A DNA stretch of 64,000 bases from contig JASEJE010000001.1 of the NCBI GenBank assembly GCA_030024085.1, forward strand, positions 186,001 through 250,000, read 5' to 3'. This stretch comes from Bacillota bacterium (lineage in GTDB: Bacteria > Bacillota > SHA-98 > UBA4971). The translations under genes and the position numbers were made by a program. This document shows positions 29,239-49,475 of this stretch, piece by piece (position 1 is the first letter of the stretch; every line of letters starts with the position of its first letter). A model generated the notes under the pieces. That model was not told the DNA's origin. It saw only the letters and a list, made by a program, of their open reading frames with translations, and made no database searches.

Positions 29239-29263
29239 GGAGGTGCAAAGTTCATACGGAAGT

Positions 29264-29368
29264 CCGCTAGGGGTGCTGTGAAAGCGGCTGAGAAGGCGCC
29301 TGTCGGTGCCTACCCTTTGAACCTGATTGAGAGACTTCGTCTGGGTAATGCCAGCGTAGGGAAGCGGC
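29264..29368 (+). ncRNA. TPP (THI-box) riboswitch
   Basis: All diagnostic stretches are present in order: GGGGTGC, GCTGAGA, ACCCTTTGAACCTGAT and TAATGCCAGCGTAGGGAA. The outer stem is closed by CCGCT (29264-29268) with AGCGG (29363-29367). It senses thiamine pyrophosphate and lies upstream of a ThiT-like transporter, a classic pairing. The distance to thiT (about 370 bases) is long because a dispersed repeat lies between them. Confidence 0.97.
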
Positions 29369-29387
29369 TCTTCGGAACCGGTTTCGG

Positions 29388-29456: not shown

Positions 29457-29670
29457 AGAGTATGGCGCCATGAGTTTGCGCCACTTCTCCTAACGGTGTT
29501 GGGGTTGCCGGTGATTGCACGAGGGGTGTCAAAATCCGGCCACTCGCCCGACGGGCCGGATTTTGGCGAAGCGCGCCCCGCCTGGGGCGCCGTCCCCGGA
29601 GTGCGACACCGGCAACGCCGGACAGGACTTTCGCGCGGAAAAGCAGCGCGGATTTGCGGCGATCCACTTG
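29457..29670. repeat. Dispersed palindromic repeat, copy 2 (about 214 bp, TIR type B)
   Basis: The left end contains TATGGCGCCATGAGTTTGCG and the right end GCGGATTTGCGGCGATCCAC, shared with copies 5 and 6. The core has GGGTTGCCGGTGATTGC, the inner stem AAAATCCGGCC/GGCCGGATTTT, CCCCGCCTGGGGCGCC and GACACCGGCAAC. It separates the TPP riboswitch terminator from thiT. Any open frame over it is accidental. Confidence 0.83.
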
Positions 29671-40380: not shown

Positions 40381-41856
40381 ATGATGGCCGGACCTCGACG
40401 GTTGTTGAGGGAATCGGGATTCTCGAGGGAATCCGGGATGTTCCATGTGACCATAGACCCCGAGGGGCCTGGGGTGCTGCGCCTTCACCTGAGGCGGGCA
40501 GGCGCGTCGATGCTGGCCGCTCTCACCAGGCGCCCGAGGAACCTCCTCTGGATCAACGGCAGCCAGCTTCTGCTCCTCGACGAAAGCAACGCGGACATCA
40601 TGCAGACGCTCATCGAGGTAGCCCACGAGCGCACGCGGCCTGGCAGCGAGGTTTCAGAGGAAACCTGGCTCGGCGTCAGGCGGGAGACGGCAGAGCGGGT
40701 GCACCGGCTTTACAGGCGCGTGCCCACAGCCCAGATAGAAGGGGACATTGACTACCTGTACGGGCTCATCGTGGAGCTTTCTCGGGGCGCATGCCCCAGC
40801 GAACGCGGCGTGCCGGGGCGCGCGATGGCTGAGGCCGAGTGGCACGCCCCCGCGCGCATGGACCTCATGATCTCGTCCATGGGCGGGTCCGGCTGCCAGA
40901 ACGCGTGCGCATGGTGCTACGCCTCGGATATGCCCGGGGTGCGGGAGCTGGACACCACCTCCTGGAAGCTGGTACTCGACCGCCTCTGGGAGGCCGGAAT
41001 ACCGATGGTAAACTTCACTGGCGGCGAGCCGACGATGCGCCGGGACCTCGTGGATCTCGTGCGCCATGCAGAGAAATTCGTGACCGGGCTCATCACCAAC
41101 GGCAGGGCGCTGGCCGGGCTTGTGGGCAAGCTCAAGGAGGCCAGCCTGGACTACATCCAGGTGAGCGTCGAGTCGGCGGACCCGGGGGTGCATGACGCGA
41201 TTGTGGGGTCGGCCGGGGCATGGGAGGAGACGACCCAGGGCATCAGGGCTGCGCTCGATGCGGGCATGTACGTCTCCACCAATACGACGCTCACCCGTGC
41301 GAATGTCGGGGGATTCCCGGCCTTGCTCCGCTTCCTCGCAGGCATCGGTGTGAGGTATGTGGGTTGCAATGCGCTCATCCCGGCCGGACGAGGCGCCCAT
41401 CATCCCGACGCACTGAGGCCACAGGAGCTCAAGGCCGTCCTTGAGGGGGCTTCGGCGGTCGCAGCCGAACTCGGCCTCGAGTTCAACTGGTTCACGCCGA
41501 CCTGTTATAACGACCTCGACCCCGTGGCCATGGGCCTCGGGGCGAAATCGTGCTCGGCATGCCACACGAACATGGCGGTAAGGCCCGACGGTGTGGTTGT
41601 GCCGTGCCAGTCGTGGCTTCACGACGAGGGACTCGGCAGCATCCTCACGACGTCCTGGAAGCGCATATTCAACCACCCGCTCGCCCGAAAGATCAGGGCG
41701 CACGGCTTCGCGCCGCCCGAATGCAGGAAATGCGGATACTTCGCCATCTGCGGCGGGGCCTGCCCCCTCGAGAGGGTGAACCGCGCGGCGCAGGGAAAGC
41801 CTGCTGTGACGGTGAAGGCTCGCCTTGAAACCGGCGTCGGGAGGGGAACGAGATGA
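40381..41856 (+). CDS. Radical SAM/SPASM enzyme with RRE-like N-terminus
   Basis: About 491 aa from an ATG preceded by AAAGGAGG. Residues about 30-85 (VLRLHLRRAGASMLAALT, then WINGSQLLLLDESNADIMQT) resemble PqqD/RRE peptide-recognition modules (inference). The radical SAM core holds CQNACAWC (Cys at about 172, 176, 179) and the SAM-binding FTGGEPTMR. The SPASM region near the end has Cys in GAKSCSACHTNM, VPCQSW, RKCGYFAICGGACP, enough for auxiliary Fe-S clusters as in peptide thioether-forming enzymes. The stop overlaps the next gene, which encodes a Cys-rich membrane protein, by four bases, so enzyme and presumed substrate are translationally coupled. Confidence 0.88.
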   Translation: MMAGPRRLLRESGFSRESGMFHVTIDPEGPGVLRLHLRRAGASMLAALTRRPRNLLWINGSQLLLLDESNADIMQTLIEVAHERTRPGSEVSEETWLGVRRETAERVHRLYRRVPTAQIEGDIDYLYGLIVELSRGACPSERGVPGRAMAEAEWHAPARMDLMISSMGGSGCQNACAWCYASDMPGVRELDTTSWKLVLDRLWEAGIPMVNFTGGEPTMRRDLVDLVRHAEKFVTGLITNGRALAGLVGKLKEASLDYIQVSVESADPGVHDAIVGSAGAWEETTQGIRAALDAGMYVSTNTTLTRANVGGFPALLRFLAGIGVRYVGCNALIPAGRGAHHPDALRPQELKAVLEGASAVAAELGLEFNWFTPTCYNDLDPVAMGLGAKSCSACHTNMAVRPDGVVVPCQSWLHDEGLGSILTTSWKRIFNHPLARKIRAHGFAPPECRKCGYFAICGGACPLERVNRAAQGKPAVTVKARLETGVGRGTR

Positions 41857-43154
41857 GGCGCGAATCTCTCATCGTAGCGATAGCGCTGGTATGCGTACTG
41901 GGCCTGGCGGCTGCCGGCGGCGTCGGTCCCGCTGCCGGTCCGGCGGCAGAACGGGCGCACGCGGCCGAGGATACCGGCACATACAGGATCCTGAGTTACA
42001 TCGTGACCATCGTTCCGCAGCCGGACGGAAGCTGGATAGCTGACTACGCCCAGGAGTGGGAGGTGACCGGCGGACACATCCCGTGGGTCACGGTGGGCCT
42101 CCCTGACTACAACTACACCATCCTCACACGCGAAGGAGCGGCCGTACAGGTGTCCCGCGCCGACTATGGCTCCTGGAGCGGAGTGCGCGTGGACCTCGAC
42201 CGCGATTACGCCAGCGGCGAGACCTTCAGGTTGAGCTTTCGGATACAGCAGGACGGCATGGGGCACCGCAAGGGCGACGCAGTCGAGTTCGCGTTCTCCC
42301 CCGGGTGGTACGACCGGGCCGAGACGGAGAACCTGGAGGTACGACTCAAGAATCCGGGGAAATCGGAGGACCTGCTCTATGCCTCGCCGGAGCCTGCGGA
42401 GCGCACAGACGACCAGGTGGTCTGGGCCGTCCGCCTGGAGCGCGGCGAGCGCCTCAAGGTCGCCTTCGCGCTCTCGGCGGAGCTTTTCCCACACCTCGGG
42501 GCCGGGGACGGGCACCAACCCGGGGCTCGAGGTGGGTTCGCACCGGACGAAGGCCCGCCGGTGGCGGCAGCCATATTCGTCCTGCTCGTGGTGGCCTGCA
42601 TCATCGCGATAATCATCATCCTCGCCGTCGCGTCGTCCCGTGGCGGCTATAGAGGTAGGCGGGGAATCTACTACGGCACCTACTTCCCGGTTCCACCGGC
42701 GCGCAGGTCCACGCGGGGGCCAGGGACCTCCTCACCACGGGGAGGATCTGGTTCATCGGGTGGCTCGCGCAGGTCCGGCGGCGGGGGCGGGTTCGGAGGC
42801 AGGTCCATTGGATGTGCTTGTGTGTCGTGCGCGTGCGCCTGCGTCTCGTGTGCATGCGCGTGTGCGTGCGCGGGGGGCGGGGGCGCGGGTTGCGCCCGCA
42901 AATTCGACGGCGCCCGCCCGGCACGGGCTGCGGGCAGCTCCGCAGATACGGCCGCGGAGGCCTGCCTACCAGCGCCAGGTGGGGACGCAGAAACGCTCCC
43001 GACCTCGAGGGAGACTCGCGGCGATTGCACGAGGGTGTCAGAAGCCGGGCGCTTGCGGCACGGGCTGGATTCTGGCGATGCGCGCCCCGCTTGCGGCGGC
43101 GCCGTCCCCGAGTGCAGCACCGCGAATTCGACAGCCGCCGGAAAACGGGGGTGA
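41853..43154 (+). CDS. Signal-peptide membrane protein with cysteine-rich C-terminal tail (candidate radical SAM substrate)
   Basis: 433 aa. Residues 1-38 are a signal peptide (IVAIALVCVLGLAAAGGVG). About 42-215 is an extracytoplasmic beta-rich domain (YRILSYIVTIVPQPDGSW), similar in type to DUF2207 N-domains. The membrane helix is at 237-260, followed by basic RGGYRGRR, so the C-terminus should be cytoplasmic. Then comes a Gly/Ser-rich linker (290-320) and the tail CACVSCACACVSCACACACA (321-340), then GGGGAGCARK: ten Cys in 27 residues. The final 50 residues are translated from a dispersed repeat (42980-43155), so the natural end was probably near residue 360. TPM and LemA-like genes follow. 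No function is proven. Confidence 0.78.
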   Translation: MRRESLIVAIALVCVLGLAAAGGVGPAAGPAAERAHAAEDTGTYRILSYIVTIVPQPDGSWIADYAQEWEVTGGHIPWVTVGLPDYNYTILTREGAAVQVSRADYGSWSGVRVDLDRDYASGETFRLSFRIQQDGMGHRKGDAVEFAFSPGWYDRAETENLEVRLKNPGKSEDLLYASPEPAERTDDQVVWAVRLERGERLKVAFALSAELFPHLGAGDGHQPGARGGFAPDEGPPVAAAIFVLLVVACIIAIIIILAVASSRGGYRGRRGIYYGTYFPVPPARRSTRGPGTSSPRGGSGSSGGSRRSGGGGGFGGRSIGCACVSCACACVSCACACACAGGGGAGCARKFDGARPARAAGSSADTAAEACLPAPGGDAETLPTSRETRGDCTRVSEAGRLRHGLDSGDARPACGGAVPECSTANSTAAGKRG

Positions 43155-43155
43155 C
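42980..43155. repeat. Dispersed palindromic repeat, copy 3 (degenerate, inside a coding 3' end)
   Basis: Contains CAGAAACGCTCCCGACC (as in copies 4 and 7), GATTGCACGAGGGTGTC, GCGCGCCCCGCTTG, CGGCGCCGTCCCCGAGTGCA and GCACCG, all in the family order but with many substitutions. The inner stem CCGGGC/GCCCGG-like arms are decayed. It supplies the last codons and stop codon of the Cys-rich protein gene. Confidence 0.7.
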
Positions 43156-43186
43156 TGACGATCCCTCGCATGGTAAGGCCCAATGC

Positions 43187-43262
43187 CGAGACGGAGGGGG
43201 AGGCGGAGGGGGAGGGGGAGGCGGAGGCGGAGACGGAGACGGAGACGGAGATGAAGACCAAA
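43187..43262. repeat. Purine-rich hexanucleotide microsatellite
   Basis: Tandem GGAGGC/GGGGGA/GGAGAC hexamers (about 12 copies) immediately upstream of the TPM gene. The plus strand is almost pure purine. It could form unusual structure or vary in copy number; it overlaps the untranslated region between two genes of the operon. Confidence 0.8.
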
Positions 43263-43278
43263 AAGGAGACAGGAACCC

Positions 43279-44010
43279 ATGATCCTTGATCCTTGCGCCA
43301 TCGGCCTGGAGCGCACGCATCCAGAGGAAGAGACGCGATCCCGCCGGTCCTCTCGTGCGTCATACGTCCTCGTGGCGATGGCCATCTGCGTTTCGCTGAT
43401 GTCGACCGCTGCGGGATGCCGCCCCGGCATCGGGGGCCGGGATTCCGGCGGCCCCGGCCTCGCAGGCCTCCGTGCTCCGGTCGCGCCGCCTCCAGGCGAA
43501 ACGTCGGGCAGGCCGCGTGGCGAGAGGCCGTACGACGAGAACGTGGAGGTGCCGCCGGGCGATCCGGCCTTCCCTGCGCTCGGCCGCTACTGGGTGGTTG
43601 ACCCGGACGGCCTCGTGGGGCCGCGCGCCCTGGAGGCGGCAGACGAGACGCTGGAGGCCTTGCGAGCTGACGGCCTGGCCGAAACGGTGATAGTGGTGCA
43701 GCGCGGCGTGAAGCGCCCGGCGGACTGGTCCACCCATTACGGGCGCTGGCTCATGCTGGGGGAACGAGAGGGTCCCCGCATGAACAACGGGCTGGTCTTC
43801 CTCATCATTCCTGATGCCCGTCCGGAGGCAGGGAGGGTCTGGTACAGTGTCGGGCGGGGCCTGCCGCGCCTCACATCGTCGGATCTCGGACCGCTCATCG
43901 AGGAGGCGGCCTCTTACGCGAACGCAGGCGACCTCGACGGAGCAGTGGTGTCCATCGCAAGAAACATCGACGACATCCTTCGGAAGGTGTACGGGAGGGG
44001 AGAGCAATGA
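43279..44010 (+). CDS. TPM-domain lipoprotein-like protein
   Basis: 243 aa, ATG after AAGGAGA. N-terminal basic region, hydrophobic helix (about 28-45, SYVLVAMAICVSLMSTAAGC) ending in a Cys that could be a lipobox, then a Pro/Gly spacer. A TPM domain follows at about 95-240: VDPDGLVGPRALEAADETLE, ETVIVVQRGVKRPADWSTHY, NNGLVFLIIPDARPEAGRV, SVGRGLPR. TPM proteins are extracytoplasmic modules of unknown or chaperone/phosphatase-like role, often next to LemA, as here. The next gene overlaps by four bases. Its place after the Cys-rich protein makes a cell-envelope role for the whole operon likely. Confidence 0.85.
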   Translation: MILDPCAIGLERTHPEEETRSRRSSRASYVLVAMAICVSLMSTAAGCRPGIGGRDSGGPGLAGLRAPVAPPPGETSGRPRGERPYDENVEVPPGDPAFPALGRYWVVDPDGLVGPRALEAADETLEALRADGLAETVIVVQRGVKRPADWSTHYGRWLMLGEREGPRMNNGLVFLIIPDARPEAGRVWYSVGRGLPRLTSSDLGPLIEEAASYANAGDLDGAVVSIARNIDDILRKVYGRGEQ

Positions 44011-44647
44011 GAAAAGGATGCCTCTTTGGAATCGCGGGCCTGGTCGTCGTGGGCCTGGTGGTCCTCGCGGGGTTCTCGTGGATCATGGGAATCCAGAGAG
44101 ATATGGTGAGACTCCAGCAGGGCGTGCTGGCGCAGGAAGGACGGTACGGCGCGGCGCTCGAGACCCTGAGCGAGAAGATCAAGGGGATCTGGGCGATAGA
44201 GAAGGACTTCCTGGAGCACGAAAAGGACACTCTCACTGACGTCATAAGGGCTCGCGCCGAGGCCCTGGACCGGGCAGGGCAGGGCAGGAGTTCGCAACGG
44301 CCACGGCCGAGGGTGACCCGCAGAAGACCATCGACGCTGCCACGAAGTTCAGGGAGGCTGCACAGGGGCTCGCGCTCTCGGTCAACGTCAACGCTTTGCG
44401 CGAGGCATACCCGCAGCTGTTCTCCCCGCCCATAGTGCAGCAGACCATGCGAGGCCTGGAGGAGGCGGTGAACGAGATCCGCACCGCTCTCGACGACTGG
44501 CAGGTGTCCATCAGAGACTACAACACTTTCAGGTCGCAGTGGCCACAGAGCTTCGTTGGCGGGGCGCTCAACTTCCCGGCTTCATACGATTACTACAAGG
44601 CCGAGAAGGCGAGGCTCAACATGGATGAGCTGATGCCCAGGGGCTGA
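44007..44647 (+). pseudogene. LemA-family membrane protein, interrupted by a frameshift
   Basis: The first frame (44007-44280) gives a membrane helix (GLVVVGLVVLAGFSWIMG) and the LemA-like coiled coil QGVLAQEGRYGAALETLSEK. After EALDRAGQG the frame breaks. The downstream frame resumes with QEFATATAEGDPQKTIDAAT and continues to SYDYYKAEKARLNMDELMPRG. The break coincides with three copies of GGGCA at 44272-44286; with two copies the frame is continuous (about 210 aa). So a 5-bp slippage caused the frameshift, or it is a sequencing error or phase-variable site. Last gene of the radical SAM operon. Confidence 0.8.
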
Positions 44648-45368: not shown

Positions 45369-45565
45369 CTAAGTAAGGGTTCGTTAGTTCCTCCCAGTTT
45401 GCCAACATCTGGTGGGCTGCCGGTGTTGCACTCGGGGACGGCGCCCCAAGCGGGGCGCCTTGACAAAATCCGGCCTGTCGGGCGGGTGGCCGGATTTTGA
45501 CACCCCTCGTGCAATCACCGGCAACCCCTTCCAAAAGTCGGGAGCATTTCTGCACTCTCACTTAG
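45369..45565. repeat. Dispersed palindromic repeat, copy 4 (197 bp, TIR type A)
   Basis: The left end is CTAAGTAAGGGTTCG and the right end TGCACTCTCACTTAG. The core has GCTGCCGGTGTTGC and GCAATCACCGGCAACC, with the inner stem AAAATCCGGCC/GGCCGGATTTT and CGCCCCAAGCGGGGCG. The terminal CTTAG contains the TAA stop codon of the adjacent Yip1 gene. Confidence 0.87.
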
Positions 45566-47511: not shown

Positions 47512-49167
47512 CTATGAAAGTCGCGGCCCGGCGGTCTTGACGGCGTCGGATACGCCGTCAAAGCGACTGAAGTTCTCGATGAACTCCCGGGCGAGCGCCG
47601 CAGCCTGATCGTCGTAGGCGCGCGGGTCGGCCCACGCATCGCGGGGTTTCATGATCTCGGGTGGCACCCCCGGGCATGTCTCCGGCACGGCAAAGCCGAA
47701 GATCGGGTCGGGCGCAACAGGAATCCCGTCCAGCTCGCCGCTGAGGACCGCCGATACGATCGCCCTCGTGTCGCGGATGCTGATCCGACTGCCCACGCCA
47801 TAGGGCCCTCCGGTCCAGCCGGTATTGACGAGATACACCGGCACGTGGTGGGCTTTGATCTTCTGTCCGAGGAACCGTGAGTACACTACCGGCGGACGCG
47901 GCAAGAAGGGAGCCGCAAAGCACGTGGAAAACGTTGCCTGGGGTGCGGTGATACCACGCTCAGTTCCTGCTAGCTTGCTCGTGTAGCCCGACAGGAAGTG
48001 ATACATCGCTTGCTCTCTCGTAAGCTTCGCGACCGGAGGCAACACCCCGAACGCATCGGCCGTGAGGAAGATGATCGCGGCGGGATGACCGCCGAGCCCC
48101 GTCGTAACGGCACGCGGGATGAAGCCGACCGGAAACCCTGCCCTGGTGTTCTCTGTCAGCGCATCGCTGTCGAAGTTGGGTGTGCGGGTGACGGGATCGA
48201 CGACCACGTTCTCGAGCACCGCCCCGAAACGGATGGCTTCGTAAATGAGCGGCTCGCTCTCTGACGAAAGCCTGATGCACTTCGCGTAGCACCCACCCTC
48301 GATGTTGAAGACGCCTCTTTCGGACCAGCCGTGTTCGTCGTCGCCTATCAGGCGGCGGGCCGGATCCGCAGAGAGCGTAGTCTTGCCGGTGCCGGATAGG
48401 CCGAAGAAGAGAGCGACGTCGCCGGCGGGACCGACGTTCGCGGAGCAGTGCATGGGAAGGACGCCGCGTCGCGGCAGGAGAAAGTTCATCACGCTGAACA
48501 CCGACTTCTTTATCTCGCCGGCGTAGTACGTCCCGCCAATGACGATCAGCCTGCGCGCAAAGCTTATGAGTATGAACGCCTCAGACCTCGTACCGTCACG
48601 CTGTGGTGAAGCTTTGAATCCCGGCGCCGCCATCACCGTGAACTCGGCCTCGTGCGTGAGAAGCTCGTCCGGGGTCGGGTGCAGGAACACCTGCTGTGCG
48701 AAGACGTTTTGCCAGGCAAGCTCGGTGACGACGCGAATGGGCAGCCGGTATTCAGGGTCTGCGCCTGCGAACCCGTCGAACACGAAGACTTCCCTATCCT
48801 TCAAGAACCTGGCGACGCGACTGGAGAGCCTGTCGAAAGCGTCCTGGGGGAATGGTCTGTTTACGGGGCCCCACCATATCTCGTCCCGTATGCCGGGCTC
48901 GTCCACGATGAACCTGTCATCGGGGGACCGGCCGGTGTACCTGCCCCCTACCACGTTGAATGCGCCCATGTCCGTAAGTACGCCCTCTCCACGCGTGATC
49001 GCAGTCTCGACCAGCCTCGGGATGCTGAGGTTGTAATGGGCTGCGTGCACTCTGCCGAGCGCTGCCACGTTTCCGCGGGGACCGTCGGCGCGCGCATTCG
49101 GGTCTTCTTCATGCCCTTCTGCGTCTTCCGGTTGCCAGATACTATCTGCCGCTGCCTCATGTACCAC
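47512..49167 (-). CDS. pckA: Phosphoenolpyruvate carboxykinase (ATP)
   Basis: Interconverts oxaloacetate + ATP and PEP + CO2 + ADP, linking the citric acid cycle and sugar phosphates. About 551 aa. Conserved stretches: [45 protein letters not shown] (P-loop shown as GLSGTGKTT), [47 protein letters not shown]. The open frame runs up to 49245, but those first codons are the riboswitch P1 strand and terminator. A GTG at 49167 with GAAGGGGGG upstream is a realistic start. It is preceded by a lysine riboswitch, which is unexpected for this gene. Confidence 0.95.
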
Positions 49168-49202
49168 TGTGTCACGCCCCCCTTCCTGATCAGGCCGGTT
49201 TT

Positions 49203-49222
49203 GAGAAAAAAGAAGCACCTTC
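49203..49222 (-). terminator. Terminator of the lysine riboswitch expression platform
   Basis: On the minus strand GAAGGTGCTTC is followed by TTTTTTCTC, beginning a few bases after the aptamer's closing stem. Stem is short but flanking Gs can extend it by wobble pairs. Placed 36 bases before the proposed pckA start. Confidence 0.65.
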
Positions 49223-49228
49223 CCCCAC

Positions 49229-49413
49229 GTGAGATAGCGCTCCACCGGGCGCTCAAGGGCAAGGCGCCCGGTGACAGTCCTGCACCTGTTAGGTGCAGGA
49301 CCAGCCCCGTGCCCCTGGCCGGGCGCGGGACTTCGGCGGCGGCCCCTTTCGGCATCCCTCCGGGATGCCCTTCTCCGGATGCCTATTCATGGCGCGCCGC
49401 GCCTCTACCTCAC
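49229..49413 (-). ncRNA. Lysine riboswitch (L box)
   Basis: The minus strand carries the complete L-box series: P1 5' strand GTGAGGTAGAGGCGC, GGAGAAGG, GCCGAAAGGGG, GCCGCCGAAG, GGGGCTGG, the P4 hairpin GTCCTGCACC/GGTGCAGGAC, then CTGTCACC. The P5 hairpin is CACCGGGCGC/GCGCCCGGTG and the P1 3' strand is CTATCTCAC. Order and spacing match known lysC leaders. It would sense L-lysine and terminate transcription ahead of the downstream gene, here pckA. Confidence 0.94.
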
Positions 49414-49475
49414 CTCCTGCGGGGAGATGAGGTGCCTCCTTCATCTTCTGGTCTGCCGACCCCGGGTTTTTCCTC

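Follow-up and report, generated by a model that had tools for sequence, protein, structure and literature searches.

The radical SAM/SPASM enzyme QhpD, of the quinohemoprotein amine dehydrogenase system, crosslinks a working protein subunit, not a peptide product; its target is not known to carry a membrane-anchored Cys-repeat tail, nor is the enzyme known to have a DUF2207-like partner. Other radical SAM enzymes act on ribosomally synthesized and post-translationally modified peptides (RiPPs), among them SkfB, the sporulation killing factor sactisynthase (PDB 6efn), which carries a RiPP recognition element (RRE) of strands followed by helices, a radical SAM domain and a SPASM/Twitch domain, in that order, with a single auxiliary cluster (PMC6231123). 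The ruminococcin C enzymes RumMC1 and RumMC2 are likewise RRE- and SPASM-bearing radical SAM proteins and form several Cys thioethers; RumMC2 uses alanine as a thioether acceptor, and AlbA and SkfB tolerate it (PMC8188230). Here we analyze a locus in a 64,000-nucleotide stretch of a Bacillota bacterium genome (assembly GCA_030024085.1, contig JASEJE010000001.1, positions 186,001 to 250,000 of the forward strand; hereafter the window), in which a radical SAM/SPASM enzyme, P0001, is encoded together with a membrane protein, P0002, that contains a Cys-repeat segment (Table 1). P0001 has a SPASM module, as the RumMC enzymes do, and with its RRE-like N-terminal domain it would share the domain order of SkfB. 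The systems differ in their substrates: SkfB modifies a free, small precursor peptide, and ruminococcin C loses its leader and is set free as an antibiotic peptide, with no membrane protein involved (PMC8188230), whereas we propose a membrane protein's tail as the substrate here. We assign a probability of roughly 0.78 to the reading that the two genes work together, a sactisynthase-like enzyme with an RRE modifying the tail of a permanently membrane-anchored protein.

The enzyme very probably modifies the tail, because the two are inherited together almost without exception. We scanned a genome collection with six seeds from the membrane protein, one of them CACACACA, and recovered 60 loci; as the seeds came from the membrane protein, the presence of the tail in these loci was selected for and that of the enzyme was not. 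In every locus except L026, which has lost its 5' end, the enzyme is adjacent, lies at a contig edge or is encoded elsewhere in the same genome. The initial annotation had named Cys tails that commonly lack a radical SAM gene as the observation that would speak against a modification system, and over 257 genomes (61 relatives, 150 members of a Lachnospiraceae family and 46 members of an Armatimonadota class) no such pattern emerged. Fifteen of the 61 relatives hold both enzyme and tail protein and 46 hold neither; among the fifteen, one (G024) has an (ACHS)n tail in place of CAC, and in two (G009, G011) the tail is hidden by a run of N or by missing sequence. Both proteins are present in 13 genomes of the Lachnospiraceae family, to which the genome of L010 belongs. 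A fourteenth encodes a relative of the ectodomain without a Cys tail (L131:1447-2292, + strand), and no enzyme was found there at E<=1e-50.

In the Armatimonadota class, which includes the genome of L059, the CAC protein is present in 30 of 30 genomes with a CAC-type enzyme, and an ACHS-tailed protein in 7 of 7 with an ACHS-type enzyme, one of which (G572) carries the two on different contigs. The CAC protein is found in 34 genomes of this class, and for four of these no enzyme match passed the search threshold: the enzyme of G582 is truncated and lies at a contig edge, the contigs of G577 and G587 stop near the expected enzyme site, and G602 is considered below. Fisher tests on the co-occurrence tables gave p values of ~5e-8 to 5e-19, uncorrected for relatedness. 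Thirteen ordinary DUF2207 proteins encoded in these genomes, one of them in the genome of the window, served as controls. None has a radical SAM neighbor; 11 have clearly Gly-rich tails whose final 60 residues contain 0-1 Cys, and the other two are broken or cut open reading frames (ORFs). Moreover, 398 genomes of the phylum yielded no CAC-tail protein outside the system, and CACACACA-coding DNA, present in 16 of them, belongs as far as examined to system loci or to unattached hexamer DNA repeats. Overall, the loci, the relatives, the Lachnospiraceae family and the Armatimonadota class all support a nearly obligate pairing of tail and enzyme.

The window's genus is rich in low-complexity hexamer DNA, part of which encodes CACACA outside such genes, and a DNA repeat could by chance spell CAC beside an unrelated enzyme. 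This explanation is already refuted by the obligate pairing and by the tail itself, which is encoded by mixed codons, is under strong purifying selection and is conserved across phyla. In a 42-codon tail region, the window differs from eight genomes of the same genus, family or class by 18-28 synonymous and 0-5 non-synonymous codon differences. Homologues from gut Clostridia, Eggerthellaceae, Acholeplasmatales, Krumholzibacteriia, Chitinivibrionia and Aminicenantes carry the motif CACACACAGGG[RG]AGC almost unchanged, and an archaeon has a close variant of it. CAC tails have GGGRAGC near their end, followed only by SSGGCT or GGGR.

P0002 is predicted to have a layout like that of DUF2207 proteins (PF09972) such as Streptococcus mutans SMU.243, in which an extracellular N-terminal domain is followed by a transmembrane (TM) helix and an intracellular Gly/Ser-rich C-terminal stretch (PMC10457818). 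Ordinary DUF2207 proteins differ from it in their Cys-poor Gly tails and in having no radical SAM neighbor. PF09972 matches 9 of 28 Cys-tail homologues (best 1.1e-4); P0002 itself is below its reach, and a PF09972 search of its own genome did not recover it. A fold search with the ectodomain returned only low TM-scores to M1 aminopeptidase beta domains, which we did not use. A positively charged flank lies directly after the TM helix, and the Gly-rich stretch GGGGGFGG sits ahead of the Cys repeat, as in the DUF2207 family layout. Because the TM helix precedes it, the tail is predicted to lie on the cytoplasmic side, as the initial annotation had proposed, and the topology described for SMU.243 agrees with this placement; the repeat itself is predicted to be disordered (AlphaFold2 (AF2) predicted local distance difference test (pLDDT) <50). 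The annotated ten Cys are indeed found at residues 321-347, but the protein does not end with them: another 86 residues follow, partly encoded by a dispersed repeat. Copies of this repeat, ~100-150 bp long and 73-83% identical, also lie at 29509-29611 and 45421-45520 and on other contigs of the genome.

The enzyme ORF contains the CQNACAWC motif and several SPASM Cys, as first noted, and both Radical_SAM (PF04055, 78.8 bits) and SPASM (PF13186, 36.6 bits) exceed their Pfam cut-offs. In the AF2 model of P0001 (mean pLDDT 85), beta strands followed by three helices precede the radical SAM core, matching the topology of the SkfB RRE. Pfam PqqD scores above cut-off in two related ACHS-class enzymes, and hhalign aligns the N-termini of CAC-class and ACHS-class enzymes (E 1.6e-5, 79%). 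An RRE-type N-terminal domain, as suggested earlier, is thus probable for the enzyme clade. SkfB is the best PDB relative by profile and by fold (Foldseek top hit 6efn, E 5e-18). Gut Clostridia homologues of the enzyme keep Cys 391, 409 and 461 and are missing the CxxC...C part of SPASM, a reduced Cys set that recalls the single auxiliary cluster of SkfB.

No NCBIfam equivalog reaches its cut-off with P0001, and the enzyme has no NCBIfam family. By score, the nearest models are NirJ2 (100.9 against 500 bits), AhbD (98.5 against 500 bits) and TIGR04053, a ranking that would suit an enzyme making a small-molecule or tetrapyrrole-type cofactor, as NirJ and AhbD do, for the Cys tail to bind. We consider this very improbable, as these scores are far under cut-off (~100 against 395-500 bits), the system enzymes form a clade of their own with an added N-terminal domain while other radical SAM proteins of the phylum align only at the core, SkfB is the top PDB match by fold, and no cofactor-synthesis family recurs beside the pair in the 60 loci. 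Membership in the NirJ/AhbD families (heme d1 and heme b radical SAM enzymes) was rejected on the missed NCBIfam cut-offs and the separate clade in the tree.

The second tail class, (ACHS)n, is carried by DUF2207-like proteins in the window's phylum and in Armatimonadota. The enzyme tree divides by tail class, with 4 changes as the minimum, a number that none of 200 shuffles matched. Obligate pairing and matched classes would be compatible with a fixed protein partner too, and Cys repeats could bind metal, so that the tail might instead assist the enzyme as a metal, Fe-S or redox module, through electron transfer, iron delivery or membrane recruitment. We judge this unlikely: the enzyme bears an RRE-like, peptide-binding domain, and the sister enzyme clades go with C-A every 2 residues or C-H-S-A every 4, a difference more easily reconciled with changing substrates than with a conserved cluster site. 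The Armatimonadota CAC loci encode, between enzyme and substrate, a second SPASM protein with no detectable Radical_SAM domain (for example L187:4930-6192, - strand, with the equivalent position occupied in L185-L196). In L224 the second SPASM protein and the substrate appear as one ORF, whose middle looks out of frame; we did not use it as a domain fusion.

Clustering of ORFs over the 60 loci left the enzyme and the membrane protein as the only widely recurring families, with no recurrent protease or exporter. The similarity of the enzyme to RiPP maturases and the usual C-terminal placement of a RiPP core would accommodate a conventional RiPP, in which the modified tail would be cleaved from its membrane protein and leave as a released or exported peptide. 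The neighborhoods lack the recurrent protease or exporter that this calls for, the tail comes after the TM helix and is predicted to be cytoplasmic, and in same-genus genomes a second hydrophobic segment and a TPM domain follow it, which places it inside the protein. Furthermore, a RiPP precursor is short, has its leader cut by a protease and is exported, and the substrate candidate here is several hundred residues long and sits in the membrane; on this evidence we regard a released peptide as distinctly unlikely. A product that stays in the membrane and is not secreted, as initially suggested, fits these neighborhoods, because no protease or exporter recurs beside the pair.

Returning to modification of an anchored tail, we consider it highly likely that the Cys tail is the substrate of the enzyme. 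In this model the enzyme, probably via its RRE-like N-terminal domain, would bind the Cys-repeat segment on the cytoplasmic side of the membrane protein encoded with it, and would then alter the repeat by radical chemistry, most likely by forming thioethers between Cys and neighboring residues in the manner of a sactisynthase. The modified segment would remain part of the membrane protein, with no leader removed and no export. Thioethers are the leading candidate for the chemistry because of the analogy with SkfB and RumMC2, and we give this more specific proposal about an even chance. A structural or redox role of the modified tail in an envelope protein is a guess.

Several observations weigh against this model. 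Known RRE maturases act on leader peptides, whereas no leader is recognizable here. P0001 itself has no Pfam PqqD match, and its RRE was assigned through topology and a distant profile match. G602 holds a CAC protein with no detectable enzyme, which contig ends do not explain. The co-occurrence counts ignore kinship, and many of the genomes are metagenome-assembled. The chemistry may vary among clades, because the SPASM Cys set is no longer complete in the gut lineages. Finally, while the nearly obligate pairing, the matched enzyme and tail classes, the selection on the tail and its predicted topology are properties of the sequences themselves, the modification is deduced from them.

TPM and LemA genes follow the pair in the window and had been annotated as parts of the system. 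They lie beside it only in the window's lineage and in L001-L004, and we rejected them as core components because they are absent beside the gut Clostridia and Armatimonadota pairs. The annotated ATGA-type overlap holds between TPM and LemA (44007-44010), as it does between the enzyme stop codon and the P0002 start (41853-41856); the tail gene and TPM are instead 124 nt apart, with low-complexity DNA of the GGAGGC type in the gap. Three same-genus genomes encode the tail protein and TPM as one ORF of 604-691 aa (L091:873-2687, L092:5364-7439 and L095:7443-9284, all on the - strand). In G001, G004 and G005 the ORF runs into a second hydrophobic segment and TPM, which would make the Cys repeat a cytoplasmic loop. 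LemA is an intact 211-aa gene in relatives; in the window it is split over two frames, only the second of which reaches the PF04011 cut-off (37.5 against 26.2 bits), through either an assembly error or a real frameshift.

Table 1 Features of the locus (positions in the window)
Feature	Position	Strand	Basis
Radical SAM/SPASM enzyme P0001, 491 aa, proposed tail modifier	40381..41856	+	Pfam, Foldseek
RRE-like N-terminal domain of P0001 (residues 19-134)	40435..40782	+	AF2, Pfam on relatives, hhalign
CxxxCxxC radical SAM cluster motif CQNACAWC (residues 172-179; C172/C176/C179)	40894..40917	+	Sequence
SPASM region of P0001, seven Cys (391, 394, 409, 448, 451, 457, 461)	41551..41763	+	PF13186, sequence
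Membrane protein P0002, 433 aa, with Cys-repeat segment, proposed substrate	41853..43154	+	Sequence, homologues
N-terminal signal peptide region of P0002	41853..41966	+	Hydrophobic segment 6-24; helix 3-21
Extracytoplasmic beta domain, DUF2207-like (residues 40-215)	41970..42497	+	AF2 pLDDT mostly >90
TM helix of P0002 (residues 236-261)	42558..42635	+	Hydrophobicity, AF2
Cys-repeat tail CACVSCACACVSCACACACAGGGGAGC, ten Cys (residues 321-347)	42813..42893	+	Sequence, purifying selection
Dispersed repeat that lengthens the tail gene at its 3' end; genome feature, outside the system	43019..43167	.	73-83% identical copies
TPM-domain protein, lineage-specific neighbor	43279..44010	+	PF04536, 34.3 against cut-off 22.1 bits
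LemA-family gene, frameshifted (44007-44435 and 44297-44647)	44007..44647	+	PF04011 in two frames

Elsewhere in the window, a strong lysine riboswitch match (112.6 bits, 49227-49415, - strand) lies just upstream of a gene at 47512-49245 (- strand) that looks, by eye only, like ATP-dependent phosphoenolpyruvate carboxykinase, an unexpected target for a lysine riboswitch. A thiamine pyrophosphate riboswitch match at 29259-29379 (+ strand) is barely above its gathering score (54.8 against 54.3 bits).

In the open-access literature on the motif, on DUF2207 together with radical SAM enzymes and on membrane-anchored RiPPs, we found no paper that describes the pair. The pair points to an undescribed, built-in protein modification present in several bacterial phyla and one archaeon, and its new aspect is radical SAM peptide modification directed at a permanently membrane-anchored substrate. 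More tentatively, and with somewhat less than an even chance in our estimate, the cytoplasmic tails of DUF2207-like proteins may form a widespread class of polycyclic, radical-SAM-made thioether modules that are retained as a working part, in two repeat designs (CA every 2 residues, CHSA every 4) with matching enzyme clades. If the proposed modification is correct, radical SAM peptide chemistry would extend beyond secreted peptides and cofactors to a fixed modification of envelope membrane proteins, with a spread that covers gut Clostridia, Armatimonadota, Krumholzibacteriia and others. The repeat-rich substrates and their paired natural enzyme clades would lend themselves to studies of mechanism, and the little-understood DUF2207-type proteins would gain a testable handle.

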